NCBI RefSeq assembly: GCF_019968605.1
Contig: NZ_CP082966.1
Location: 1,971,001-2,035,000, forward strand
Direction of reading: 5' to 3'
Length of the DNA: 64,000 bases
DNA from: Polaribacter litorisediminis
Lineage (GTDB): Bacteria; Bacteroidota; Bacteroidia; Flavobacteriales; Flavobacteriaceae
A program made the position numbers and the translations under genes. The notes under the pieces were generated by a model, which saw nothing but the letters and a program-made list of their open reading frames with translations, had not been told where the DNA came from and ran no database searches. This document shows, piece after piece, positions 7,405 through 61,880 of the stretch; the first letter of the stretch is position 1, and every line of letters starts with the position of its first letter.

Positions 7405-7571
7405 TAATACCATTTTAGACATATAATGCCGTAATAAATCGTTTCTTTTTCGCTTACTTTTTATTAAAAAAAATGACCAGAACAAAGGCTAAGCTCATTG
7501 TTTTTTAATTTCAATGAACCAAAAAATAATTCAATTTATTTACACGGCATTATACATATAAATTGGTATAA
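7405..7571. mobile_element. MITE-like element, copy B, with terminal inverted repeats
   Basis: The element is about 167 bp, non-coding, with imperfect terminal inverted repeats of about 35 bp. Left end: TAATACCATTTTAGAC then ATATAATGCCG. Right end, read in reverse complement: TATACCAATTTATATG then TATAATGCCG. The right boundary coincides exactly with the point where the neighbouring DUF6090 reading frame is lost (7571/7572). A second, more decayed copy lies at 2324-2494. No transposase is present; such an element would need one in trans. Confidence 0.8.
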
Positions 7572-7718
7572 TTTATCATTTCTCCATTCATTTAATTGAA
7601 TTGCTAATAAAACTCCAATTACTACCAATACAATTTCGCCAATTGCATAAAGTAAATATTTGCTGAACTTGTTTTCAATCAATAAGCTTTGTCTCATCTT
7701 TTTAAAAAATTTTATCAT
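7572..7718 (-). pseudogene. DUF6090-type protein, N-terminal remnant cut by MITE-like element
   Basis: The 49 codons encode the characteristic N-terminal module seen in the two intact relatives at 52829-53557 and 54448-55407: a basic amphipathic start (MIKFFKKMRQSLL), then a membrane helix with AIGEIVLVVIG and ending QLNEWRND. After Lys49 the frame runs into the MITE-like element and stops 11 codons later, so about 190-270 residues of the usual protein are missing. Upstream of the start codon it retains the leader seen before one relative (TTGGTTAGTGATT on the plus strand) and a diverged copy of the 132-bp intergenic repeat. This is a dead gene. Confidence 0.85.
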
Positions 7719-7736
7719 TGGTTAGTGATTTCTGAT

Positions 7737-7868
7737 CATGAAGTGTAAGGTGTTTGTGTATGATTAGTTGTATGATTTCAGCACTAAATTTAGCAAATAA
7801 AAACCGAATAGGAAATCCGCGAGTACTTTTGTAAGTAGGCTAACTAGCAATGAATTATATATATTTTT
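7737..7868. repeat. Diverged third copy of the 132-bp intergenic repeat family
   Basis: Read on the minus strand, this stretch follows the same order of blocks as 55430-55561 and 56061-56192: TATAATTCATTGCT, a CGG-containing centre, TTTTTATTTGCTAAATT, AGTGCTGAA, ACACAAACACC and finally CACTTCA before the DUF6090 leader. Identity is clearly lower than between the other two copies but the layout is the same, and it again sits directly upstream of a DUF6090 reading frame. Confidence 0.55.
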
Positions 7869-7897
7869 GTTGCTCTATGCTTTGCTTTAAATCAAAT

Positions 7898-50675: not shown

Positions 50676-52229
50676 TTATTTAATTACCTTTTTTAATATT
50701 CCGAAAACTGCTCTTATAAAGGTTGCACTCGTTAGTACTTTTACTAAAGGATTCATTCTAGCACTGGCACTAGAAGAAGTTTTGGTTGCTGTTCTCTTAG
50801 CTTTTTCTCTTTCTAATTTTTCTTTTTCCTTCTTTTCTATAGCTTCTTTTATGGCTTTCTCTTCGGCTAAATTAATTTTTTCAATTTTACTATTTAGCAT
50901 TTCATAGGCACTTTCTCTATCTAATTCTTGATTATATTTATGGATTAATCTAGAATTCTGAATCACACTATTTAATTCTACATTTGTTAAAATGTCCATT
51001 CTACTCATCGGCGCACGCAACATGGTTCTTGCCAGAGGCGTTGGAATTCCTTTTTCGTTTAAAACGGATACAAAAGCCTCTCCAATTCCTAATTGCGTTA
51101 ACACTTCTTTGGTGTCGTAATATGCTGAACTCGGGTAATTTTCGGCTGCCAATTTAATTGCTTTTCTATCTTTTGCCGTAAAAGCTCTTAGTGCGTGTTG
51201 TACTTTTAAACCTAATTGTGCTAAAATATCTTCTGGCACATCTTTAGGGTTCTGCGTTACAAAATACAACCCAATTCCTTTAGATCTTATTAATTTTACA
51301 ATGCTCTCAATTTGATTTAACAAGGCTTTAGAAGCTTCTTCAAAAACCAAATGCGCTTCATCTATAAAAATTACCAGTTCTGGGCTGCCAGCATCTCCTT
51401 GCTCTGGAAATGTTTCATAAACCTCTGCCAACAATTGCAACATAAATGTTGAAAATAATTTGGGTTTATCTTGAATATCAGTGAGTCTTAAAACAGAAAT
51501 AATACCTCTTCCATGTTCATCAATTCTGGTTAAATCTTCTACTTCAAAAGATTTTTCTCCAAAAAACAAATCGCCTCCTTGTTGTTCTATTTCAATAATT
51601 TTACGCAAAATTGCACCCGTTGAAGCTGTTGAAATTCGGCCATATTCATTTTGAATTTCTTCTTTGCCTTCTTGCGTAATATATTGTAACATCTTTTTAA
51701 AATCTTTGATGTCTAACAACGGAAATTTATGATCATCACAATATTTAAAGATAATCGCTAAAATACCAGCTTGTGTTTCTGTTAAGTCTAAAATTCTAGA
51801 TAACAAAACTGGTCCGAATTCTGAAACTGTGGCACGCATTTTTGTACCTGCTTGTTCAGAGATGGATAAAACTTCGATCGGAAAACTTTTTGCTTCAAAC
51901 GGAAAACCAATTTTGGCATGTCGTTCATCAATCTTTGAATGCCCTGAACTGGCTTTTGCCAACCCAGATAAATCTCCTTTGATATCCATTAACAAAACAG
52001 GAATCCCTTTTTCCGATAAATTTTCAGCTAAAACTTGTAGGGTTTTTGTTTTTCCAGTTCCGGTAGCACCGGAAATTAAACCATGCCTGTTAAGGGTTTT
52101 TAGTGGAATTTTTATGATAGCATCTGTAATAGTTTCCTCTCCTAACATTGCTGCACCTAGCTCTATATAATCACCTTTGGTTTTGTAACCATTGTTTATA
52201 TAATCAAAGAACTCTTCACGTTCGCCCAT
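50676..52229 (-). CDS. HerA-like/DUF853 ATPase
   Basis: The 517-residue P-loop ATPase has Walker A GATGTGKTKTLQ, followed by VLLMDIKGDLSGLAKAS, and Walker B LVIFIDEAHLVFEEAS, matching the DUF853 group of HerA/FtsK-type proteins. The C-terminal ~60 residues are a charged helix (many Lys/Glu/Arg). HerA proteins act with nucleases on DNA; no NurA-like nuclease gene is adjacent, so the role is open. It borders the accessory island on the downstream (right) side. Confidence 0.92.
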   Translation of the reverse strand: MGEREEFFDYINNGYKTKGDYIELGAAMLGEETITDAIIKIPLKTLNRHGLISGATGTGKTKTLQVLAENLSEKGIPVLLMDIKGDLSGLAKASSGHSKIDERHAKIGFPFEAKSFPIEVLSISEQAGTKMRATVSEFGPVLLSRILDLTETQAGILAIIFKYCDDHKFPLLDIKDFKKMLQYITQEGKEEIQNEYGRISTASTGAILRKIIEIEQQGGDLFFGEKSFEVEDLTRIDEHGRGIISVLRLTDIQDKPKLFSTFMLQLLAEVYETFPEQGDAGSPELVIFIDEAHLVFEEASKALLNQIESIVKLIRSKGIGLYFVTQNPKDVPEDILAQLGLKVQHALRAFTAKDRKAIKLAAENYPSSAYYDTKEVLTQLGIGEAFVSVLNEKGIPTPLARTMLRAPMSRMDILTNVELNSVIQNSRLIHKYNQELDRESAYEMLNSKIEKINLAEEKAIKEAIEKKEKEKLEREKAKRTATKTSSSASARMNPLVKVLTSATFIRAVFGILKKVIK

Positions 52230-52306: not shown

Positions 52307-52705
52307 TTAGTTAATCCAATTTTTAAAATCTTTTACACGTTCTCTACTTACAATAATTTCTTGTTCGTTGTAAGAGTTTAAAATTAATTTTAAACGATAA
52401 TTAGCATAGGCAACAATATCTTTTATCGCATTTATATGAACAATAAAAGTTCGGTTTACTCTAAAAAAATAGTTTGGATTTAAATCATTTTCTAAGCTTG
52501 GACTTCCTAGTAATTTTGTGACTAATTTTCTTAGGCCGCTTTGTTAAAGAATGATTAATAATATAATTGCTGTCAGAAGTTTTTAGAAACGTTGCGTTTT
52601 CAAAACTATAAAAGCAATGAATGTCATCTACCCTTATAATTTTTATTTTCTTTCCTATTCTAACTGTAAAAGATTCTTTATAAATTTCAAGAGTATAAGT
52701 AGACA
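52307..52705 (-). pseudogene. LytTR response regulator fragment, frameshifted
   Basis: The frames translate to the DNA-binding (LytTR) part only: FTVRIGKKIKIIRVDDIHCFY, then after a frame change near 52500-52545, FFRVNRTFIVHINAIKDI through VKDFKNWIN and a stop. The receiver domain is missing. The last ~175 bp (52316-52480) are nearly identical to 61028-61195 in the intact regulator gene (about six differences by eye), while the upstream half has diverged much more. The 5' side ends in the 127-bp repeat. A small frame covering 52485-52775 is made of repeat plus this remnant and is not a real gene. Confidence 0.85.
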
Positions 52706-52710
52706 CTCCA

Positions 52711-52837
52711 CTCCTTTTAAACTCCAAACCGAAACGGTCGTTTCCGCTTATCCTTAGCAATGGATCAGTCAACAAGGCATGTAGCGTTGGCCTATCGGCA
52801 GGCCATATGCTTAGTTATTGTGCTTTCGTTATTTATT
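52711..52837. repeat. 127-bp intergenic repeat, copy 1
   Basis: Matches 54179-54305 with three differences in 127 bases. On the minus strand it begins within the last codons of a DUF6090 gene, with GAAAGCACAATAACTAAGC, and holds a small palindromic core (GGCCTGCCGATAGGCC). Confidence 0.92.
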
Positions 52838-53557
52838 TCTTTGCAACAATTCGGCTTCAATTTTTCTCTGTACCTCCTCATTTTCTTTTATTCCTCGTTC
52901 ATAATTAGTATTTATCCAATAATAAAATCCCAAAGCTTGTTTAAGAGCTTCGTGGAAATAAGTATCATCTTGTGCTTCTTTTAAGTTTACTGGCTCTGAC
53001 TTTGACTGCCCAAATGATGTCCTAACATACTTAAATACTTCACTCATATGCAAAGTTTTCACAGGCTCATAATCTGCTCTTAAGTCTTCGGTTATGTAGA
53101 AATACTTAAAATCATACAATTCCGAAATGGCAATTCTAAGTGAGTCATTCTTAATAATATCTATTCCTTTAGATTTTAAGTTTTCATAGGCAACAGTTAT
53201 AGGTTCAAATGTACCTCTTCCGATTAATTTATTGTAAGACATTCTTAATGAATCAGTTAGAGGTGCTCTTTGTTCTAAATGAATTAATACTTCTCTATTG
53301 AGTTTAAATTTGTTTTGATTGAACTTAATTTTCGAGTTAAGATTTATGACGTCCTTTTTAAGATTGACTAGAATTTCGATTAGTATATTCGATTCAAGTT
53401 TTCGTTCTATTCTGTCATTATTCCAATTATTGATTTGTAGGGCTAATAAAATACCAATCATTACTAGAACAATTTCTCCAATCGCATAAATTAAATACTT
53501 ACTGAATTTATTTTCAGAGAGTAAATTCTGTCTAATTTTTCTAAAGAATTTTATCAT
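52829..53557 (-). CDS. DUF6090-type membrane protein
   Basis: The 242-residue protein has the N-terminal module shared by three genes in this window: basic amphipathic start (MIKFFRKIRQNLLSENKFSK), membrane helix with AIGEIVLVMIGILLAL and then INNWNNDR. The rest (about 50-242) is a mostly helical, charged extracytoplasmic region with LKKDVINLNSKIKF. I recognise the pattern as the uncharacterised DUF6090 group, abundant in Flavobacteriaceae; the name is from memory. Its last codons lie inside the 127-bp repeat. Function unknown. Confidence 0.8.
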   Translation of the reverse strand: MIKFFRKIRQNLLSENKFSKYLIYAIGEIVLVMIGILLALQINNWNNDRIERKLESNILIEILVNLKKDVINLNSKIKFNQNKFKLNREVLIHLEQRAPLTDSLRMSYNKLIGRGTFEPITVAYENLKSKGIDIIKNDSLRIAISELYDFKYFYITEDLRADYEPVKTLHMSEVFKYVRTSFGQSKSEPVNLKEAQDDTYFHEALKQALGFYYWINTNYERGIKENEEVQRKIEAELLQRNK

Positions 53558-53584
53558 TAGTTATCGGTTTGTCATAATGAAGCA

Positions 53585-53740
53585 CAACAATTGCATATGC
53601 TCATTATTGATATATCACATACATGTTATACATTTGAAAAGTACTCTTTTCCAACAGAATATCCAAATTGCTTTTTATGTTTCTTCTATTTATGTGAATG
53701 GTTTTGGTATCGATTTCTGTTGTTCTTTGTAGAGCTATAT
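53585..53740. repeat. Diverged ~150-bp intergenic repeat, copy 1
   Basis: Shares order and many words with 60790-60935: TTGCATATGCTCATT against TTGTACATGCGCATT, then ATATATCACATACATGTT against ATATCGCATATATGTT, CTTTTC, TTCTATTTATGTGAATG against TTTATTTTATTCATATG and finally ATTTCTGTTGTT with GAGC. It sits just before a DUF6090 start codon. Confidence 0.6.
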
Positions 53741-54178
53741 CCTTAATACTTTATAAATATCTCAAATTTATGTTGTTTCCACACAATGGGATCCAAAAGT
53801 ATGGCAAAGAAATTATAAAACGTAAAATTCTCAGATATGGCTTTAAAAAATATTTCCAAAAAAGGGCTTAGAACACTTTTGCCTTAAAAGAAAGATACTA
53901 GCTTGAAAAACTCTTTTAAGAGTTTGAAGTAGCAGCAATCGTTTAAAAAGTTATTTTCTGAGTTGAGAATCTTCTAATCATTATTCGTTCATTAATTTTG
54001 AGTCCGACTTAAAAATTAAACTAAACTAAAAAAAATTGCATATGTGGGATACTACTTGCCCAAACTCAAAAAACGAGCCCTAAAATGCCATCCAAAAAGA
54101 CTGAACATTTAAAAAACGTATCATAAATAGCTCGAATACAATAGAAATATTGAGAACCATCTCCTTTCCCCAGTCACA
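53741..54178. other. Non-coding spacer within the island
   Basis: No gene and no further repeat recognised between the two repeat copies. AT-rich with scattered stops in all frames. Confidence 0.45.
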
Positions 54179-54305
54179 CTCCTTTTAAACCCCAAACCGA
54201 AACGGTCGTTTCCGCTTATCCTTAGCAATGGATCAGTCAACAAGGCATATAGCGTTGGCCTATCGGCACGCCATATGCTTAGTTATTGTGCTTTCGTTAT
54301 TTATT
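54179..54305. repeat. 127-bp intergenic repeat, copy 2
   Basis: Near-identical to 52711-52837. It follows the extended C-terminal end of the second DUF6090 reading frame, the same placement as copy 1. Confidence 0.92.
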
Positions 54306-54312
54306 ACAGATA

Positions 54313-54447
54313 TTATTTAATTTTAATAAATTCATTTTTTCCGTTTCGAGTCATCGTTAAACTCTTTATTTCACCTTTTTTCTTATTGAATTCAATTAGT
54401 ACTGAAGCGTCCTTGAAGAAAAATTTAGCTTCTTCATAGGGAACTAA
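54313..54447 (-). other. In-frame coding continuation after amber stop
   Basis: Directly after the TAG, the same frame reads Leu-Val-Pro-Tyr-Glu-Glu, then FFFKDASVLIEFNKKKG and MTRNGKNEFIKIK before TAA. The pattern (VEFP/LxPxE, F/V-E-F, KKG) is what the end of such a beta tail should look like, so the TAG interrupts a real gene. Confidence 0.75.
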
Positions 54448-55407
54448 CTATACCTTTTTACCATCAGGAAATTCCACATAAATGCGCATATTTTCTAATA
54501 GCACAATTAAATCAAAACTCTCTCCCTTATATGTGCCAATGTAATTTTTTAAAATATCCTGTGATAGCGTTATTTCTTTATAAACCATTTCTGCTGGAAG
54601 GATTGGTAATGCTTGTATTTCTGGGTGATGAATTTTTAATTCTTCATAGATGGCCTTTAGAAGATTTGTGGTTTTTGCTTGAATATTGTTAAGTACTCCT
54701 AAAGAAAATCTTTTGCCTCCTAAATCGTATAAAACAAGATTCCTGCCTTTAATTGACTGAATAAATTCAATAATGTTTGATTTGAGTTTCTTTTCAGCTT
54801 CATCTTTAGAAAGTGTATTCAATGAGGAAAACTCTCTACTAGCTACAAAATTATTTATACTAATTAAATCTATCTTATCTTGTTCGTATAGGTAAAATTT
54901 TTCATACTTCATCAAATCATCGAAAACATGGCTCAATGCTCCCTTTAGAAATTCTACATTTTTATTATAATAATTCAATATTTTTGAATTAAGATTTTCA
55001 TTATTTGATAGAGATGTAATACCAAGGTTATTCATCTTGAGATATGTTAATTCACTCGTTCTAAAATTTAGATTTACAGGAGTAATAATCATATAGAGAC
55101 TATCAAGGGATAATTTATGAATGTCCTTGGTATTCATTGCTGCTTCTTGATTCTCAATATTATTTTTGAGCTTTTTGATATGATCACCTAGTGTGAAAAG
55201 GTCCCCTGTTAATTCAGACTTCATTTCGGTTAAAAATTGGTATCCTAATTTGGAATTTTTCCTGTTATCATTCAAATTATTTAATTGCAAAGCGATCAAA
55301 ATTCCAATAACAACAAGGAGAATTTCACCAATGGCGTATTTAAAATACTTTCCTGTTTTGTTTTCCATAAGTAAGTTTTGACGAATTTTTCTAAAGAATT
55401 TTATCAT
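54448..55407 (-). CDS. DUF6090-type membrane protein, C-terminus cut by in-frame stop
   Basis: The 319-residue product has the shared N-terminal module (MIKFFRKIRQNLLMENKTGK, membrane helix with AIGEILLVVIGILIALQL, then NNLNDNR) and a long helical extracytoplasmic part. The last ~45 residues (YIGTYKGESFDLIVLLENMR) resemble the beta-rich tail found after serine hydrolase-like domains. Reading ends at a TAG (54448-54450) in the middle of that tail; the frame stays open for 44 more sense codons up to a TAA at 54313. The gene is either recently inactivated at its end or makes a slightly shortened protein. Confidence 0.75.
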   Translation of the reverse strand: MIKFFRKIRQNLLMENKTGKYFKYAIGEILLVVIGILIALQLNNLNDNRKNSKLGYQFLTEMKSELTGDLFTLGDHIKKLKNNIENQEAAMNTKDIHKLSLDSLYMIITPVNLNFRTSELTYLKMNNLGITSLSNNENLNSKILNYYNKNVEFLKGALSHVFDDLMKYEKFYLYEQDKIDLISINNFVASREFSSLNTLSKDEAEKKLKSNIIEFIQSIKGRNLVLYDLGGKRFSLGVLNNIQAKTTNLLKAIYEELKIHHPEIQALPILPAEMVYKEITLSQDILKNYIGTYKGESFDLIVLLENMRIYVEFPDGKKV

Positions 55408-55429
55408 TGGTTAGTGATTGGTTAAAATG

Positions 55430-55561
55430 AAGCACAAAGTTGTTGAATATGGTTTGTTGCGTGGTTAAGCAACTAATTTAGTAAACAAATACGAACTAGA
55501 GAAAATTCCGAAAGAATTTTCCAAATAAGAACTTGCCAAAGCAATTAATTATAAGGTGTTG
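55430..55561. repeat. 132-bp intergenic repeat, copy 1
   Basis: Matches 56061-56192 with about five differences. On the minus strand it runs CAACACCTTATAATTAATTG through CGTATTTGTTTACTAAATT to ACAACTTTGTGCTT-like ends. It lies between the stop of the PspC gene and the start of the DUF6090 gene. Confidence 0.92.
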
Positions 55562-55572
55562 AACTTAGTTAA

Positions 55573-56043
55573 TTATTTTTTACTTACAATCAATGTTCCA
55601 ACAATCGCAGCAAAAACGCCACCAATAACAGATACAAATAGAGCAATCATTATAGTCATAATGGAACCTTTAGAATCTAAAGTTTGTCCATATTGCCATC
55701 CTCCCCATAATCCAAGTAAACATCCTGTTACAATTAAGCCTATAAGCGAAAATATATTTTTAACAACTCCATTAGTAGAATTGGATTTGTCACGATTAGA
55801 ATCCATATCAGGTTTATCTAAATCAGATTCTAAAAAAATTTTATTGGGAATTGCAATCCACAGGATAATATAAATGATAAATCCGATGCATAAAAATAAG
55901 GATAAGATTAACCAAAGAATACGTACTAACAACTCTGAAACGCCAAAATAATCTGCTAAACCTGAGCAAACACCACCTAAGACTTTTTTATTGGTATTTC
56001 TATATAGCTTTTTATTAGAATTAGATTTTTTTTGGTTATTCAT
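55573..56043 (-). CDS. PspC-domain membrane protein
   Basis: The 156-residue protein has an N-terminal PspC domain (about 10-65) with the signature KVLGGVCSGLADYFGVSELLVRI and a first membrane pair, then a second hydrophobic pair (about 100-150). PspC proteins sense or stabilise the envelope under stress; here no other phage-shock genes are near. It is framed on both sides by near-identical 132-bp repeats in the same orientation, so the gene together with one repeat forms a unit of about 630 bp. Confidence 0.9.
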   Translation of the reverse strand: MNNQKKSNSNKKLYRNTNKKVLGGVCSGLADYFGVSELLVRILWLILSLFLCIGFIIYIILWIAIPNKIFLESDLDKPDMDSNRDKSNSTNGVVKNIFSLIGLIVTGCLLGLWGGWQYGQTLDSKGSIMTIMIALFVSVIGGVFAAIVGTLIVSKK

Positions 56044-56060
56044 TTAAGATTTGTTTTATT

Positions 56061-56192
56061 AAGCACAAAGTTGTTGTATATGGTTTGTTGCGTGGTTAAG
56101 CAACTAATTTAGTAAACAAATACGAACCAGAGAAAATTCTGAAATAATTTTCCAAATAAGCACTTGCCAAAGCAATTAATTATAAGGTGTTG
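56061..56192. repeat. 132-bp intergenic repeat, copy 2
   Basis: Direct repeat of 55430-55561, placed between the stop of the alpha/beta hydrolase and the start of the PspC gene. Confidence 0.92.
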
Positions 56193-56204
56193 GCAATAGT
56201 TTTT

Positions 56205-57044
56205 TTATTCCTTTTTCCTCTCATCTATTTTCTCACTAACTCTTTCAACTTCTTTTATTAAAAGTTTAATTCCAGGGTTATGCATTCCATTATGTCCAAA
56301 TCCTTGGATTTCGAATAATTGCGTTTCGGTATGTCCTACAGTTTTCATTAACCTTTCTAAATATAGATTTTCTTCATATCTAGTGGGGGAATCAATATTC
56401 CTATCTCCTGTGATTAAAATTAAAGGGGGTGCATTTTCTCTCGCCTTATTCAATGGTGATAATTCGTCAACTATAGTCTTAAACTTAGGTAAACCTTTTT
56501 CTTCTCTTACAGTGAAATGAGTAGCTGTTTGACCGCTTAAGGAAATCATACCTGCAATGTTATCAGCATCTACATTAAAATTATTTAACCACTGTTTGTC
56601 CAAACCAAGCATTAAGGCAAGATAACCTCCTGCGGAATGTCCAGAAACAAATATTTTGTTAGAATTTCCGCCGTATGATTCAATATTATTAAACACCCAA
56701 GCGACGGCTGCTGCTGCATCCTCAATATAAGTTGGCGCTTTTACTTTTGGTGATAAACGATAATTAACACTTATAATACATAAATCAGCATTCATTAATG
56801 CCTCAGGAAAATACTTGTTTCCATTCTTTAATCCTCCGCCGTGAAACCAAACAACTGTATTGAATTCTTTTGTGTTCTCTGGGTAACGTATATCTAATTT
56901 ACAACGTGATTTAGTATACGCATCCGTGTTTATTGAGTCAGCATAATATGATACATCTAAGACCTCTTTGAATGTTGGTTTATCTTGTCCAATTAATTGG
57001 GTTGAAATTAAAAGTGTTATCGAAATAAATAGTGCTTTGATCAT
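56205..57044 (-). CDS. Exported alpha/beta hydrolase (BD-FAE/carboxylesterase-like)
   Basis: The 279-residue protein begins with a signal peptide (ending STQLIGQ). Its hydrolase domain shows VVWFHGGGLKNG (oxyanion HGGG), IISVNYRLSP, nucleophile elbow KIFVSGHSAGGYLALM with catalytic Ser, ILITGDRN and catalytic His in GFGHNGM. This is the pattern of BD-FAE-like and hormone-sensitive-lipase-like esterases. Substrate unknown. A TAAATTTG box (57050-57057) sits against the ATG, so the mRNA would be leaderless or nearly so. Confidence 0.9.
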   Translation of the reverse strand: MIKALFISITLLISTQLIGQDKPTFKEVLDVSYYADSINTDAYTKSRCKLDIRYPENTKEFNTVVWFHGGGLKNGNKYFPEALMNADLCIISVNYRLSPKVKAPTYIEDAAAAVAWVFNNIESYGGNSNKIFVSGHSAGGYLALMLGLDKQWLNNFNVDADNIAGMISLSGQTATHFTVREEKGLPKFKTIVDELSPLNKARENAPPLILITGDRNIDSPTRYEENLYLERLMKTVGHTETQLFEIQGFGHNGMHNPGIKLLIKEVERVSEKIDERKKE

Positions 57045-57049
57045 ATTAA

Positions 57050-57057
57050 CAAATTTA
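57050..57057 (-). promoter_or_regulatory. -7 promoter element of the hydrolase gene
   Basis: TAAATTTG on the minus strand, an exact TAnnTTTG match ending 5 bp before the start codon. It lies in the downstream exon of the group II intron. Confidence 0.5.
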
Positions 57058-57107
57058 TATTATTTTGGTAAATGTTAGACTCTTTTAATTTTTGTCAACG
57101 TTTAGTA

Positions 57108-57909
57108 ATCGAGTAGGTAAAGGGAGTTTCACCCTAAACCTCTCACAGAACCGTGCTTGAAAGTCTCCCCTCACACGGCTCTTCTTATACAAATCTAATA
57201 GATTTTCGTGTTATTTATGAATTCCTCCTCAAATTAATTGAGTTGATAAATAAATAACTGCGTATAAGCTAAGCCCTTTGCTCCATTTCAATTACAGAAA
57301 CTTCTTCACTACTAAGGCTTAGTCTGCCTCTGCTTATAACTTCGGTATGCTACCTCTTGGTTGTTCCAATTGTGTATTTCCCTTTTTACTTGAAGCGAAT
57401 CCTCTAGCGGTAGCCTTATACAAGTCTAACATTTATAAGCAGTTTTCCAAGTTCCGTAAATAAGCCTAAATAAAGGTCTTGCCACCTGAATGACGCCAGT
57501 CTTACAGAAAATAAATAGGTTACTTCTGTAATTATTAAACTCTAATTAAATTCATTACTTTTCACTCCGTACCATACTTCGTAGCTTTTGACAGGAGGTT
57601 TGCAACTTCTCGACACCTCTTCAATGGTTCACTTTAATTCAACTCCTTTATTAATACCTGCTAACATCATGGGTTAGATTCTCCTAAACGCTCAATACCA
57701 CAACTATTAATTGCAGCACCTTTAGATGGTTTGAAGCCATCGCCTATACAACGACTTCGATGGACCTACCATCATCTTATTTACAGCATTCAGTCAGTTT
57801 ATTGCCGTGACTGATTCTTGGCACACTATGAGTAGTTGCGGATTTAATACCGCTAATCTGTCCGATGGCAAGATACTTAATTAAAAGCAAAAACGGTTCA
57901 AGTTCGCAC
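57108..57909 (-). mobile_element. Group II intron without ORF
   Basis: Read on the minus strand the element begins GTGCGAAC (57909-57902, matching the GUGYG 5' end) and ends CTACTCGAT (57116-57108). Domain V is complete: 34 nt at 57181-57148 with the AGC triad (GAGCCGTG), a GAGA tetraloop and the closing strand CACGGTTC. Domain VI follows with strands GAG-AGGT and ACCT-A-CTC, leaving a bulged A (57114) exactly seven bases from the 3' end, and the 3' end is AT as expected (AY). The whole is about 802 nt and no reverse-transcriptase ORF is present. The flanks read GGTTTAG before and TACTAAACG after, so the joined exons form the palindrome GTTTAGTACTAAAC. Confidence 0.88.
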
Positions 57910-57956
57910 CTAAACCGCTATTGCTTTTATACCTTGTTGGCTGTAGTTTTTTTCTT

Positions 57957-58961
57957 CTATTTTAACGTTACAAACCATTCATTAAACTTCTGGCTCATTT
58001 GTTTTGGGTGGATTTCGGTTAAAAAGTGCTTTCCTTTTCCTAAATAAACATAGGTTGCATTTTTGAAGTTTTCTTTGGCGTATTCAACTGCTTTTCTTCT
58101 GTTTACCAATCCTTTTTTTGCGTAGAAATATAATATTGGGATTTGTGTTTCTTTCACACCGTTTGATATGGTGTCTAACAAGGTCGCAAAATCGCTTTCT
58201 CCTTTGCCTTTGGTGTAGGACAGTATCGCTGGGTCAGGACCGTTAGTAATGGCATATCGTCTTTCATTTTCGTCCCAAGGTTGTGTATAATACTTGTAGG
58301 CTTCTTTAGGTAATTTTCTGCCCGTGAAGAAGTTTACGGCTAATTTTTTACCTGCAAAATTCTTTTTCACCATCAACTTTTCGTTTCCTTTTTTCGACCT
58401 TGTTAGCTTCATAAATGCTTTAAAGCTAAACGGCAATTGGTCGTAAAAAACTTCGGCTGGCATAAATGGTGCTTCAAAAAGTGCGATTCCTTTTACATTG
58501 TGTGGTTCTCGAATGGCATACAAGATTCCTACAAGTGAACCAATGTCCTGAATAAATAACGTTACATTTTTGAGTTGTTTGGCTTCTATAAAATCAGTAA
58601 GCATTTTGTACTGTACTTCAACAGAAACATCACGGTCTTTTGGAAAACTTGATTTACCGAAACCTAAAAAATCAAGTGCGATTACTTTCTTGTTACTGTC
58701 AATATTGGGAATGATATTACGCCATAGATAAGCATTTGCGGGTAAACCGTGCAGTAATAATACCGGATCTCCTTCTCCTGATTCTACATAATGAATCGTG
58801 TCTGCTCCTAAATTTATAAATTTAGACTCAAAAGGGAATTCTGCTGAAATACCCTTTTCAACTTTAGTGTTTTTTCCTGCATATACGTCTTGAGCATTTA
58901 CTTTATGAAGAAGTAAAGGGCTGAATACTAGAAGTATTGTTGTAATTATTTTTAGGTTCAT
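57957..58961 (-). CDS. Exported alpha/beta hydrolase with Asp nucleophile (haloalkane dehalogenase-like)
   Basis: The 334-residue protein has a signal peptide (ending KVNAQ) and an alpha/beta hydrolase fold: oxyanion LLLHGLPANAYLWR, then LDFLGFGKS, the elbow LFIQDIGSLVGI with Asp at about residue 138 instead of Ser, and catalytic His in GKGKHFLTEIHP. An Asp nucleophile is the mark of haloalkane dehalogenases and epoxide hydrolases. Substrate is unknown, and a periplasmic location is unusual for dehalogenases. It is the last gene of a three-gene unit with a small membrane protein (1-bp gap) and an SDR. Confidence 0.87.
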   Translation of the reverse strand: MNLKIITTILLVFSPLLLHKVNAQDVYAGKNTKVEKGISAEFPFESKFINLGADTIHYVESGEGDPVLLLHGLPANAYLWRNIIPNIDSNKKVIALDFLGFGKSSFPKDRDVSVEVQYKMLTDFIEAKQLKNVTLFIQDIGSLVGILYAIREPHNVKGIALFEAPFMPAEVFYDQLPFSFKAFMKLTRSKKGNEKLMVKKNFAGKKLAVNFFTGRKLPKEAYKYYTQPWDENERRYAITNGPDPAILSYTKGKGESDFATLLDTISNGVKETQIPILYFYAKKGLVNRRKAVEYAKENFKNATYVYLGKGKHFLTEIHPKQMSQKFNEWFVTLK

Positions 58962-58962
58962 A

Positions 58963-59451
58963 TTATTTCTTTTTGAGGTTTTTGAAAAGTCTGATAAATA
59001 TGTATATATGGCTTATAATTGTAATTGGACCCACAATTACAGACATCCACCAAATACCGCCTATATCATAATTGTAAAACTCTTGTGCGGAGGCTTGCGG
59101 TAATGCAGTCATTAAATCAGCAAACCCCCATAAGTTAAAAATCCAAACTAAGGGAATTGCATACTTCCATTTAACCTTTAAGGCATAAGTCGTAATCAAA
59201 GCTAAAATTGCCACACTGTAATCCCAAACCCCTATTGTGAGAGCTAAGTCTTTAGGGAATTCATCATAGATTTGATTGTCCACCATGAACATCATTCCTA
59301 AGTATCTTATTCCGTGTAGAAAAACAAAGGGAATTAAGGCTTCTCGAATTGGTAGTTTAGATACCTTAGGCAGAATAAACCATCTAAGTGCAAAAAATAC
59401 CATTAAAAAGGCAGCAAGTGTTTGTAAATTGAAAATTGTAAAATTGTCCAT
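58963..59451 (-). CDS. Small four-helix membrane protein
   Basis: The 162-residue protein consists of about four hydrophobic helices (starts around 8, 45, 75 and 135) with little soluble part. Motifs such as FLHGIRYLGMMFMVDNQIYD and WDYSVAILAL recur in uncharacterised membrane proteins of Bacteroidota. It lies between the SDR gene (21-bp gap) and the dehalogenase-like gene (1-bp gap) and is co-transcribed with both. Function unknown. Confidence 0.8.
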   Translation of the reverse strand: MDNFTIFNLQTLAAFLMVFFALRWFILPKVSKLPIREALIPFVFLHGIRYLGMMFMVDNQIYDEFPKDLALTIGVWDYSVAILALITTYALKVKWKYAIPLVWIFNLWGFADLMTALPQASAQEFYNYDIGGIWWMSVIVGPITIISHIYIFIRLFKNLKKK

Positions 59452-59472
59452 TTTGTTATTTTTTATTTGTGA

Positions 59473-60243
59473 TTATTTGTTGTTTGGGATTGGTTTTTTG
59501 TTCAATTGCTTAAAAATGAACTTGGGTGCTAGTCTGCTCATTAGTTTGAGTTGTTTTGAAATCCCTGGCGTGATTTCTTCTTTGCCATTAATGAAATCTT
59601 TCCAAAAAATGTTGGCTAACTTTTCGGGTGGCATTGGTTTCAAGTTATCATCTTCGGCAATATCAGCTCCGTGTGCCAACGGTGTGTCAACAACAGGAGG
59701 TAAAAGTTCTATCACTTTTATATTATGCGGTTGTAGTTGCGGTCGAATGGCTTGTGACCAAAAATGCAAAGCCGATTTTGTCCCTGAATATACAGGTGCT
59801 TGCGAAAAGGTAACATAAGCCAAACCCGAAGAAACATTGACTAGAACTGCGTTCTTACTATTTTTAAGTTGTGGTAAAAAGTAGTGCAATAGTCTTATGG
59901 GCGAATTGTAATTGATTTCAATTTCTTGCATTTGTTTTTGCAAGTCATTGCTTTCGTTTCCTGCATCTACTAAATTCATTATTCCTGCATTGTTGACTAG
60001 TACATCAATACCTCCAAATTTTTGTTGGATATCGTCTGCGAGCATCCTTACTTCGGCATCAACCGTAACATCACTTTGATAGATATGTATTTGGGGATTT
60101 TCTTGTTTTACTTTTTCGAGTTTAGCAAGATTTCTACCTGTTATGATTACGGTATTGTCATTTGCTAAGAATTTTTGAGCTATAGCAAGTCCAATGCCTG
60201 AACTTCCACCCGTTATAAGTACGATTTGTTTTGATTGTTTCAT
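59473..60243 (-). CDS. Short-chain dehydrogenase/reductase
   Basis: A 256-residue SDR of the DltE-like kind. Cofactor motif ITGGSSGIGLAIAQKF, NNAG in VLVNNAGIMNL, and catalytic Ser and Tyr/Lys in VSSGLA and YSGTKSAL are all present. It should oxidise or reduce a small alcohol/ketone with NAD(P)H. It is the first gene of the three-gene unit, and its promoter lies in a 79-bp gap shared with a divergent HxlR regulator, which therefore probably controls it. Confidence 0.94.
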   Translation of the reverse strand: MKQSKQIVLITGGSSGIGLAIAQKFLANDNTVIITGRNLAKLEKVKQENPQIHIYQSDVTVDAEVRMLADDIQQKFGGIDVLVNNAGIMNLVDAGNESNDLQKQMQEIEINYNSPIRLLHYFLPQLKNSKNAVLVNVSSGLAYVTFSQAPVYSGTKSALHFWSQAIRPQLQPHNIKVIELLPPVVDTPLAHGADIAEDDNLKPMPPEKLANIFWKDFINGKEEITPGISKQLKLMSRLAPKFIFKQLNKKPIPNNK

Positions 60244-60260
60244 TTATATTTCCTATTTTT

Positions 60261-60277
60261 GCTATTAAATCAGTAGC
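60261..60277. promoter_or_regulatory. HxlR operator candidate 1
   Basis: GCTATTAAATCAGTAGC, a 17-bp dyad. It overlaps the SDR transcription start and the last base of its -7 box. Confidence 0.55.
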
Positions 60278-60308
60278 AAAAGTAAGGTAAATAATTTTTA
60301 CTATCAAA
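60277..60308 (-). promoter_or_regulatory. Promoter of the SDR operon
   Basis: On the minus strand TTTG (60308-60305), 20-bp spacer, TACTTTTG (60284-60277). Both operator-like dyads overlap or touch its elements. Confidence 0.65.
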
Positions 60309-60314
60309 ATAGTA
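60299..60314. promoter_or_regulatory. HxlR operator candidate 2
   Basis: TACTATCAAAATAGTA, a perfect 6-bp-arm dyad covering the -33 box of the SDR promoter and lying just before the HxlR start codon. Confidence 0.6.
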
Positions 60315-60322
60315 GTGAAAAA

Positions 60323-60754
60323 ATGGAAAATAATTTTAGGTCAGGCTGTCCTATTGCTTCTACCTTAGATATTGTAGGGGATAAATGGTCATTACTAATT
60401 ATAAGAGATATGTTACTTCAAGGGAAGAGGACTTTTAAAGATTTTTCGAGTTCTCCAGAAGGAATAGCACCCGGAATTTTGTCGGCAAGATTGAAGTGGT
60501 TGGAAGAAAATGAGCTAATTACCAAACAGAAATTGCCTGATAATCAAAAAGAAAACATCTATTTGTTAACAGAAAAAGGTATAGAGCTAACTCCAATAAT
60601 AACAGAAATTATTTTGTGGAGTGATAAAAACTTAAGAGTTCAAAATGCAGAAATGTTCTCGATAGCCGAAGCAGGATTTAATCAAGACAAATCAAAAGTT
60701 ACGGAAGGTATTCAAAATAATTATCGTCAGCTTGTAGAAGAAATTTTAGGCTGA
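60323..60754 (+). CDS. HxlR-family transcriptional regulator
   Basis: The 143-residue protein is a winged helix-turn-helix regulator of the HxlR group: N-terminal SGCPIASTLDIVGDKWSLLI with Cys9, DMLLQGKRTFKDF, GIAPGILSARLKWLEENELI. The conserved Cys before the Pro is the redox- or electrophile-sensing residue in relatives such as HypR/YodB. It lies divergent from the SDR-membrane protein-hydrolase unit with two dyads between them, so it most likely represses that operon until a reactive compound (quinone, aldehyde or halide) modifies it. That inference fits the encoded enzymes. Confidence 0.93.
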   Translation: MENNFRSGCPIASTLDIVGDKWSLLIIRDMLLQGKRTFKDFSSSPEGIAPGILSARLKWLEENELITKQKLPDNQKENIYLLTEKGIELTPIITEIILWSDKNLRVQNAEMFSIAEAGFNQDKSKVTEGIQNNYRQLVEEILG

Positions 60755-60789
60755 GCAGTGTTCTTTTAAATTACTGCCAACAATTGTAC

Positions 60790-60935
60790 ATGCGCATTGT
60801 TGTTATATCGCATATATGTTCTACTTTTTAAAATTAGTCTTTTCTAGCAAACCACCCTAATGACTTTTCATGTTTATTTTATTCATATGCATAGTTTTAG
60901 GATAAATTTCTGTTGTTTTTGGAGCATTATGCCCT
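60790..60935. repeat. Diverged ~150-bp intergenic repeat, copy 2
   Basis: Counterpart of 53585-53740 in the same orientation. It starts 30 bp after the HxlR stop codon, right behind a GCCAAC motif. Confidence 0.6.
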
Positions 60936-60956
60936 AAGTAAGAATTCATTTACCCT

Positions 60957-61019
60957 GAAACCTTGAAACCTTGAAACTTTGAAACCTTGAAACCTTGAAA
61001 CTTTGAAACTTTGAAACTA
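60957..61019. repeat. 8-bp tandem repeat (GAAACYTT)
   Basis: Seven full and one partial unit of GAAACCTT or GAAACTTT in a head-to-tail array, ending just before the stop codon of the LytTR regulator on the other strand. Confidence 0.93.
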
Positions 61020-61022
61020 ATA

Positions 61023-61778
61023 CTAGTCAATCCAACTCTTAAAATCTTTTACACGTTCTCTACTTACAATAATTTCTTGTTCGTTGTAAGAGTTTAAAAT
61101 TAATTTTAAACGAGAATTAGCATAGGCAACAATATCTTTTATCGCATTTATATGAACAATAAAAGTTCGGTTTACTCTAAAAAAATGATCTGGATTTAAT
61201 TGTTCTTGCCAATATTCAAGAGAATTATCTAATAAAAAATTTCTATTTTCTTTGGTATGAATATAGGTTGATTTGTTTTCACTGTAGAAACATTCTATTT
61301 CATCAATATGAATAATTTTAATGTGCTGTCCCACTTTTATAGACACTCTTTTTTTAAACTTTTGATCTACTGGATTGATCAATAATTTACGAATATCCTC
61401 CATATTCACCTGAACATTCGCATGTTTGGGTTGCTGTTTTTTAAATTGATTTACAGCAACTTCCAATTCCTCATCATCTAATGGTTTTAACAAATAATCG
61501 ATACTATTTAATTTAAATGCTTTTAAAGCATATTCATCATAAGCGGTTGTAAAAATAATGGCAGATTTCACTTCAATTTCATCAAAAATCTCAAAAGATA
61601 ATCCGTCAGAAAGCTGAATATCTAAAAATATTAAATCTGGATGTTCGTTATTTTGCAACCAATTTAAAGACTCTTCTACAGAATGGAGCATCTGCTGTAC
61701 TTCGATATCTAATGCTGCTAACATTCTGTTTAATCTTCTAGCAGCGGGCTTTTCATCTTCTATAATTAATACGTTCAT
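61023..61778 (-). CDS. LytTR-type response regulator
   Basis: The protein (251 residues from the ATG near 61778; a TTG further up at 61826 is less likely) has a receiver (acidic IIEDEKPAARR, phospho-acceptor Asp53 in LIFLDIQLSDG, Lys in YLLKPLDDEE) and a LytTR DNA-binding domain (about 145-251; ECFYSENKSTYIHT, FFRVNRTFIVHINAI, ERVKDFKSWID). Its kinase is the LytS-like protein at 62838-63998, with three 2TM genes between them on the same strand. The last ~175 bases are duplicated in the pseudogene at the other end of the island. Confidence 0.94.
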   Translation of the reverse strand: MNVLIIEDEKPAARRLNRMLAALDIEVQQMLHSVEESLNWLQNNEHPDLIFLDIQLSDGLSFEIFDEIEVKSAIIFTTAYDEYALKAFKLNSIDYLLKPLDDEELEVAVNQFKKQQPKHANVQVNMEDIRKLLINPVDQKFKKRVSIKVGQHIKIIHIDEIECFYSENKSTYIHTKENRNFLLDNSLEYWQEQLNPDHFFRVNRTFIVHINAIKDIVAYANSRLKLILNSYNEQEIIVSRERVKDFKSWID

Positions 61779-61880
61779 TGTTGTTTGTATTTTAAAATTT
61801 CCACAAGGTCTGTTTAAGATTATCAAATTTTAATTGCATTCTAATTTTCAATTCTCATCACTTTATAATGATTATTTATT

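Follow-up and report, generated by a model that had tools for sequence, protein, structure and literature searches.

Bacteroidota are named among the integron-bearing phyla in two reviews (PMC8618304, PMC9668308), and the account of IntegronFinder 2.0 credits Bacteroidetes proper with earlier In0 elements and a single complete integron (Salinibacter). The survey described in PMC2426708 chose only integrases with the additional domain, whereas PMC8138268 describes an 'integron-like' subgroup of recombinases in which the insertion is not fully conserved. Surveys that define the integrase by the additional domain would pass over a family without it, and titles and beginnings of abstracts in the open-licence PMC literature (preprints excluded) contained no recognised account of integrons of Flavobacteriia or Bacteroidia with an integrase of this kind. 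Here, a stretch of 64,000 nt from Polaribacter litorisediminis (contig NZ_CP082966.1, positions 1,971,001 to 2,035,000), referred to as the window, was analysed. An earlier note, made from the sequence alone, had proposed that the window contains a repeat-delimited island between two copies of a LytTR response-regulator gene, similar in logic to integron cassettes. Our analysis makes it very probable that this island is a partly decayed cassette cluster of an integron-like system, run by an IntI-related recombinase encoded elsewhere in the genome.

Read on the minus strand, the region from 52.3 to 61.2 kb resolved into five cassette-like units with self-complementary ends. The units start at 60781, 57099, 56069, 55438 and 53588 and end at 57938, 56191, 55560, 54287 and 52819, respectively. 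All five starts consist of (G/T)TT, seven further bases, A and T (A at +10, T at +11), and start and own end were complementary at 9, 8, 7, 8 and 8 of 10 bases in the same order. The total of 40 of 50 matching bases was equalled in 4 of 120 permutations, and random starts reached 13.9 on average and 24 at most. The motifs that had been noticed after stop codons were found at the implied places on the minus strand (TTGCCAACACCTTATA at 56196, CAGCCAACAAGGTATA at 57943 and GTTCAACACCTTATA at 55564), as was the start-side motif CAACTTTGTGCTT around 56068 and 55437 on the same strand. The motif CTGCCAACAATTGTAC was likewise present, at 60774 on the plus strand, but its reading as the end of a plus-strand unit was ruled out by the end matching: when read on the minus strand it opens the SDR/HxlR unit, which begins with GTTGGCAGTAATTT at 60781 and is complementary at 9 of 10 bases to its own end CAGCCAAC at about 57938. 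The long direct repeats were also recovered (144 nt, 93%; 129 nt, 98%; 143 nt, 77%; and the LytTR tail of 176 nt, 96%). All genes assigned between 52.8 and 60.2 kb lie on the minus strand, followed by the HxlR gene on the plus strand. The two LytTR copies flank the island, as had been stated, but do not belong to its units.

The linkers between the units were not confined to this place. A BLAST search with the linker in the own genome returned 18 places at E ≤ 0.01, including the two of the window itself, with a best E of 3.7e-16 outside the window. A two-ended linker pattern matched 14 sites in the searched stretches and none in the same DNA reversed; looser two-ended patterns gave 32 sites against 2 in the reversed control, and 5 of these 32 were removed by eye before alignment. 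A covariance model, R1, was built from 18 sites of the own genome (alignment A1) and found 58 places there at E ≤ 0.1, including the 18 training sequences and, as the four weakest, matches at E 0.01-0.05. The R1 scores of the two window linkers are not independent, the first being a training sequence and the second 93% identical to the first. In the R1 alignment, 8 of 16 pairs had changed on both sides and 94.8% of the cells pair, a value reached by 0 of 500 shuffles; the collecting patterns fix AAC/GTT and most of ATTGC/GCAAC, so that those pairs are uninformative, and the covarying pairs lie between them. A second and longer family, D5, had 31 matches in the own genome. The possibility that D5 is an unrelated repeat was ruled out, since 18 of 19 copies among the matches listed have a variable ...CAAT ahead of its conserved 5' end; a matching start with A10 and T11 was found for only part of the copies. 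Separately, a tandem run of at least 12 genes, mostly of about 250 aa and with similar intergenic repeats, was observed at about 1009-1026 kb of the genome on the plus strand (L023-L024), and two weak R1 matches fall within it at 1020 and 1022 kb.

Eleven stretches from five genomes together contained 277 sites. The own genome contributed 32 of these from four stretches, the window among them with four sites, and the remainder came from the relatives G013 (121, plus 2 on the opposite strand), G016 (68), G001 (35) and G021 (19). Each stretch had a single orientation except for 2 of the 123 sites of G013, whose array was the largest, with the 121 same-strand sites within 120 kb. At E ≤ 0.01, R1 matched 25 of 39 genomes, and for the own genus the count was 23 of 24, this genome included; with stricter filters (E ≤ 1e-4) it matched 31 of 295 genomes of the class Bacteroidia. 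Judged by these matches, the system is present in other Bacteroidia besides the own genus. No match at E < 0.05 was obtained in 19 short control loci (eight IntI and eleven Xer; 68 kb), the best values being 0.051, 0.23 and 0.81.

An integrase was absent from the window, and two intact tyrosine recombinases were found elsewhere in the genome at the heads of site arrays. The gene at 2983686-2984798 (plus strand) is followed by four R1 sites, and the gene at 3792729-3793895 (minus strand) has cassettes behind it down to 3769 kb (21 profile matches). These two proteins are the best scorers of the own genome against TIGR02249 (integron integrase). A broken integrase copy near 3467 kb has a site nearby, and a partial copy lies near 3448 kb. 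Among loci named for integrase relatives, the best 80 of 551 were examined, and an iterated profile found sites at 17 of them. Most of the 60 sites at these loci (52) lie downstream on the strand of the integrase, six upstream on the opposite strand, two upstream on the same strand and none downstream on the opposite strand; only 291 of the 897 kb of flank is downstream.

Clear AAC and GTT were present in 255 of the 277 sites, and 247 cassettes (120-6000 nt, between neighbouring sites) were analysed. Start and own end were complementary at offsets 3-9 in 181-235 of these cassettes (offsets 0-2 being so by construction), at offset 10 in 4, and at offsets 11 and 12 in 218 and 215, respectively. 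The mean complementarity to the own end was 6.30 of 8 compared with 2.87 for shuffled partners. Only GTT/AAC, on which the sites were anchored, is constant in the R box. The consensus GTTRRRY fitted 22 of 247 R' boxes, and RYYYAAC/GTTRRRY was rejected for the linkers, in agreement with the misfit that had been pointed out. Folded in silico, the sites were predicted to be imperfect palindromes of conserved structure in which the bottom strand forms the more stable fold (247 of the 254 sites in arrays and 236 of the 238 circle sites that were modelled). At two places the top strand carries fixed A.C oppositions (220/247 and 222/224), which are G.T on the bottom strand. Folding of the linkers as single strands, which had been proposed as a check, favoured the bottom strand in these predictions across many sites and gave a weak signal for single sites.

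An attI-like junction was recognised in 12 of 14 arrays, where the first cassette start lies 78-140 nt past the integrase match and is complementary to the first R'' at 9-10 of 10 bases. In G001, which has two integrase copies, attI was identical at 103 of 103 bases, and past the junction 88 of 300 bases agreed. Identical cassettes formed 23 pairs, 20 of which had different neighbours on both sides; identity ended on the left at a distance of 0-6 nt from G|TT in 20 pairs and on the right at 3-7 nt from GTT in 18. As far as sequence comparison reaches, the cassettes are bounded at G|TT and move unit by unit, as in integrons. Among 110 cassettes from four stretches, 103 had their largest open reading frame (ORF) on the array strand. 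A cargo scan of 85 of the 105 cassette ORFs listed for four stretches matched 70 Pfam families, 60 of them in one protein each. The cargo scanned in three genomes includes defence genes; among the matches listed were a DRT reverse transcriptase and methylases (PADLOC) as well as GmrSD and AbiH (Pfam). The cassette-like logic proposed for the island was supported by linkers across the genome, oriented arrays at integrase-like recombinases, G|TT breakpoints, covariation and the bottom-strand folding bias.

Within the window, the features of the island and its flanks are the following:

50676..52229, minus strand: HerA-like ATPase, conserved left flank (Pfam PF05872, E 2.4e-173).

52308..52483, minus strand: duplicated tail of the LytTR response-regulator gene, 96% identical to 61024-61199.

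52709..52837, minus strand: 5' half-site of the second family, which continues into the LytTR tail copy; 98% identical to 54177-54305.

52819..53588, minus strand: cassette 5 with a DUF6090 protein (52829-53557, minus strand); start GTTGTGCTTCAT, end GAAAGCACAAT, 8/10 complementary.

53578..54298, minus strand: long second-family attC-like site of about 0.7 kb that separates cassettes 4 and 5; 5' end CAATAACTAAGCATATGG, 3' end AATTGTTGTGCTTCAT, probable extent.

54287..55438, minus strand: cassette 4 with a DUF6090 protein (54448-55407, minus strand); start TTTGTGCTTCAT, end GAAAGCACAAT, 8/10.

55428..55569, minus strand: attC-like site of cassette 3; R1 103 bits, E 4.7e-19; 93% identical to the site of cassette 2.

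55560..56069, minus strand: cassette 3 with a PspC-domain protein (55573-56043, minus strand); start TTTGTGCTTAAT, end CTAAGTTCAAC, 7/10.

56059..56200, minus strand: attC-like site of cassette 2; R1 109.7 bits, E 1.9e-20; among the 18 training sequences of R1.

56191..57099, minus strand: cassette 2 with an alpha/beta hydrolase (56205-57044, minus strand); start GTTGACAAAAATT, end CTATTGCCAAC, 8/10.

57087..57949, minus strand: attC-like site of cassette 1 with a group II intron inside; halves GCCAACAAGGTATA...CCGCAACTACTCATA, intron, TACTAAACGTTGAC.

57108..57826, minus strand: group II intron of 719 nt in the L' box of the cassette 1 site (RF01999 E 9.8e-22, RF00029 E 9.5e-12).

57938..60781, minus strand: cassette 1, 2.84 kb; start GTTGGCAGTAATTT at 60781, end CTACAGCCAAC, 9/10; Pfam-assigned genes: HxlR regulator (60323-60754, plus strand), SDR (59473-60243, minus strand), 162-aa protein (58963-59451, minus strand) and alpha/beta hydrolase (57957-58961, minus strand).

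60771..60920, minus strand: 3' half-site of the second family, heading cassette 1, with R' GTTGGCAGTAATTT; 60778-60920 is a direct repeat of 53585-53727 (77%).

61023..61826, minus strand: intact LytTR response regulator (Pfam), conserved right flank.

A tandem 8-base repeat (CTTTGAAA/CCTTGAAA) occupies 60944-61023, separating the right half-site from the LytTR gene. Outside the island, a further lone R1 site (81 bits) was observed at 7739-7877 on the minus strand, adjoining a DUF6090-like repeat at 7534-7748.

A LytTR gene was located near HerA in 17 of 20 relatives, with a HerA-LytTR spacer of 200-9161 nt. With thresholds of E ≤ 1e-8 and coverage of at least 30% of a protein, none of the window cargo was found beside HerA in the 20 relatives except for an SDR match at 24%. 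First-family sites were likewise not found there at E < 0.1, the second family not having been sought. An identical gene order in all relatives, which the earlier note had taken as speaking against cassettes, was therefore not observed. Because the cargo was not found at this place in the relatives and the spacer is variable, the island looks like an insertion particular to this genome at a variable spot. It is very probably a small, partly decayed outlying cluster of the cassette system. The duplication of the LytTR tail at both sides, together with the variable spacer, would also agree with an ordinary genomic island brought in by homologous recombination at the LytTR gene, with the attC-like sites as passengers. 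Five adjoining units with matched ends speak against it, and we regard this explanation as possible but rather unlikely; it is compatible with the cassette cluster as the last step of its arrival.

All three RF01999 introns of the own genome lie within or adjoining such sites. Two of them, of 719 and 718 nt, are inserted at CATA|TAC in the L' box, the boundaries of the window intron having been set from the second copy, and the third has an aberrant 5' border. Moreover, a 498-aa ORF, presumably a transposase, is present in both arrays, at 10208-11704 of L030 (minus strand) and at genome positions 3780205-3781701 in array A. At both copies the neighbouring site reads up to ACCGTCAG(A/T)CTGTCTC, which points to insertion of this element into cassette sites close to the G|TT core.

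The array-heading integrases contain a SAM-like domain and a catalytic domain, preceded by an N-terminal extension. In an alignment of 11 rows of the new family with three IntI, the IntI-specific insertion, that is the additional domain, was absent from all 11. The scores against TIGR02249 were 182-192 bits compared with a cut-off of 265, and no protein of the own genome exceeded this cut-off. The C-terminal tail I.[NS]P.D.L is common to the new integrases and IntI. The best-scoring NCBIfam family for the new integrase was NF040815 (XerA), below its own cut-off. Each of the two known groups formed one side of an unrooted tree with full support (100/100; IntI with 7 rows, Xer with 6), and the new family (41 rows) formed one side with weak support (79/66), long branches being flagged; the tree places the family outside the housekeeping Xer group and does not show which two of the three are nearest. 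At least about 7,900 homologues were obtained at E ≤ 1e-20 among 8,000 scored candidates, and those named among the matches listed were mostly from Flavobacteriaceae. Canonical IntI above the cut-off was detected in 84 of 296 Bacteroidota genomes; among the matches listed, G073 was the only one from the own class.

The shared logic, the G|TT breakpoints and the common tail could also be accounted for by an ordinary integron, with a classical IntI using ordinary attC sites and with lineage variation as the source of the odd consensus, and the listing of Bacteroidota in the reviews cited above agrees with this. Five R1 matches at E < 0.01 were observed in the Polaribacter phage P12002L (L282), four of them around methyltransferase genes. 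According to PMC9892861, one of two tested attC sites of P12002L, which may or may not be among the R1 matches, recombines with attI1 through IntI1, and this too favours an ordinary integron. However, the lack of any own-genome protein above the TIGR02249 cut-off, the missing insertion, the poor fit of the R' boxes to GTTRRRY and the isolated position of G073, alone of its class among the genomes listed with a strong TIGR02249 match, make an ordinary integron doubtful. From its sequences, the system appears to work like an integron, yet it lacks two defining features, the IntI insertion and the GTTRRRY consensus. We consider it likely that it represents a second class of integron in Bacteroidia, with an IntI-related recombinase devoid of the additional domain, R boxes free except for GTT, and a choice of strand through A.C/G.T mismatches.

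Taken with the sites, arrays, complementary ends, attI-like junctions and breakpoints described above, such a system would operate as follows. Each unit would extend from G|TT to its end site, and the excised circle would join its own start (GTTNNNNNNNAT) to its own end (ACNNNNNNNAAC), creating an attC-like site folded from the bottom strand. An IntI-related tyrosine recombinase from elsewhere in the genome would perform the reaction, reading the fold more than the sequence and cutting at G|TT, and the circle would enter attI about 80-140 nt past the integrase gene, or other sites. Since the A.C mismatches of the top strand become G.T wobbles on the bottom strand, the latter would be the (single-stranded) substrate. 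The cluster in the window probably arose by insertion into the LytTR-HerA spacer.

Several observations weigh against this integron-like reading. Sites were missing at 63 of the 80 named integrase loci, many of which have little flank. Four loci (L170, L181, L196 and L200) have their sites upstream on the opposite strand, and two more sites (L166, L186) lie upstream on the same strand. The upstream-opposite layout of the four loci corresponds to the divergent layout of classical integrons. The integrase relatives of L170, L181 and L200 are 274-280 aa long and have no N-terminal extension. The attI comparison failed for array H (7/10) and for L128, where the match is 1689 nt away. In three of the 23 pairs of identical cassettes the neighbouring sequence is shared too, and these may reflect duplications of larger segments; sharing between genomes amounted to one near-full-length cassette pair among the 247 cassettes, so that the movement of units rests on duplicates within genomes and on the attI comparison. 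Lone sites folded modestly (z from -1.86 to +0.69 and from -2.30 to -0.58), and the folding evidence therefore comes from many sites together. In the window, the permutation test is weakened by the identical ends of cassettes 4 and 5, and two of the five units start with TTT instead of GTT, which suggests decay of the cluster; the sites with TTT starts may be inactive.

That the linkers are dispersed palindromic repeats (MITE- or REP-like) that were scattered by a transposase and amplified through homologous recombination, with the array look being secondary, would suit their 31 and 58 scattered places and the large direct repeats that permit homologous exchange, but is highly improbable in view of the uniform orientation behind integrase genes, the unit-specific complementarity of ends and an attI that stays constant while cassettes are exchanged.

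A family without the IntI insertion heads arrays of up to 121 sites in marine bacteria and offers a natural test of what this insertion is for. If the system does represent a second class of integron, structure-specific recombination of cassettes would not depend on the insertion, and searches that require it would have missed many integrons in marine flavobacteria.

With group IIC-attC introns, the window intron shares its position within a cassette site, whereas it differs in lying in gene orientation and in the L' box. Like Xer/XerA, the new family has core and catalytic domains without the IntI insertion; it differs in its IntI-like C-terminal SP.D.L tail, absent from the three Xer rows shown, in its association with arrays and in its position outside the six Xer rows of the unrooted tree. 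The system shares with sedentary chromosomal integrons an integrase gene, an adjacent attI, cassette arrays of one orientation, the G|TT junction, matched R''/R' ends and a predicted bottom-strand fold. In contrast to these integrons, its integrase lacks the IntI insertion and carries an N-terminal extension, its R box of about 10 bp is variable outside GTT and accompanied by fixed A.C mismatches, and at most loci with sites its array follows the 3' end of the integrase gene. Finally, the cluster in the window resembles CALINs (attC clusters without an integrase) in having no adjacent array integrase, but its sites belong to a family that is tied to insertion-less integrases.

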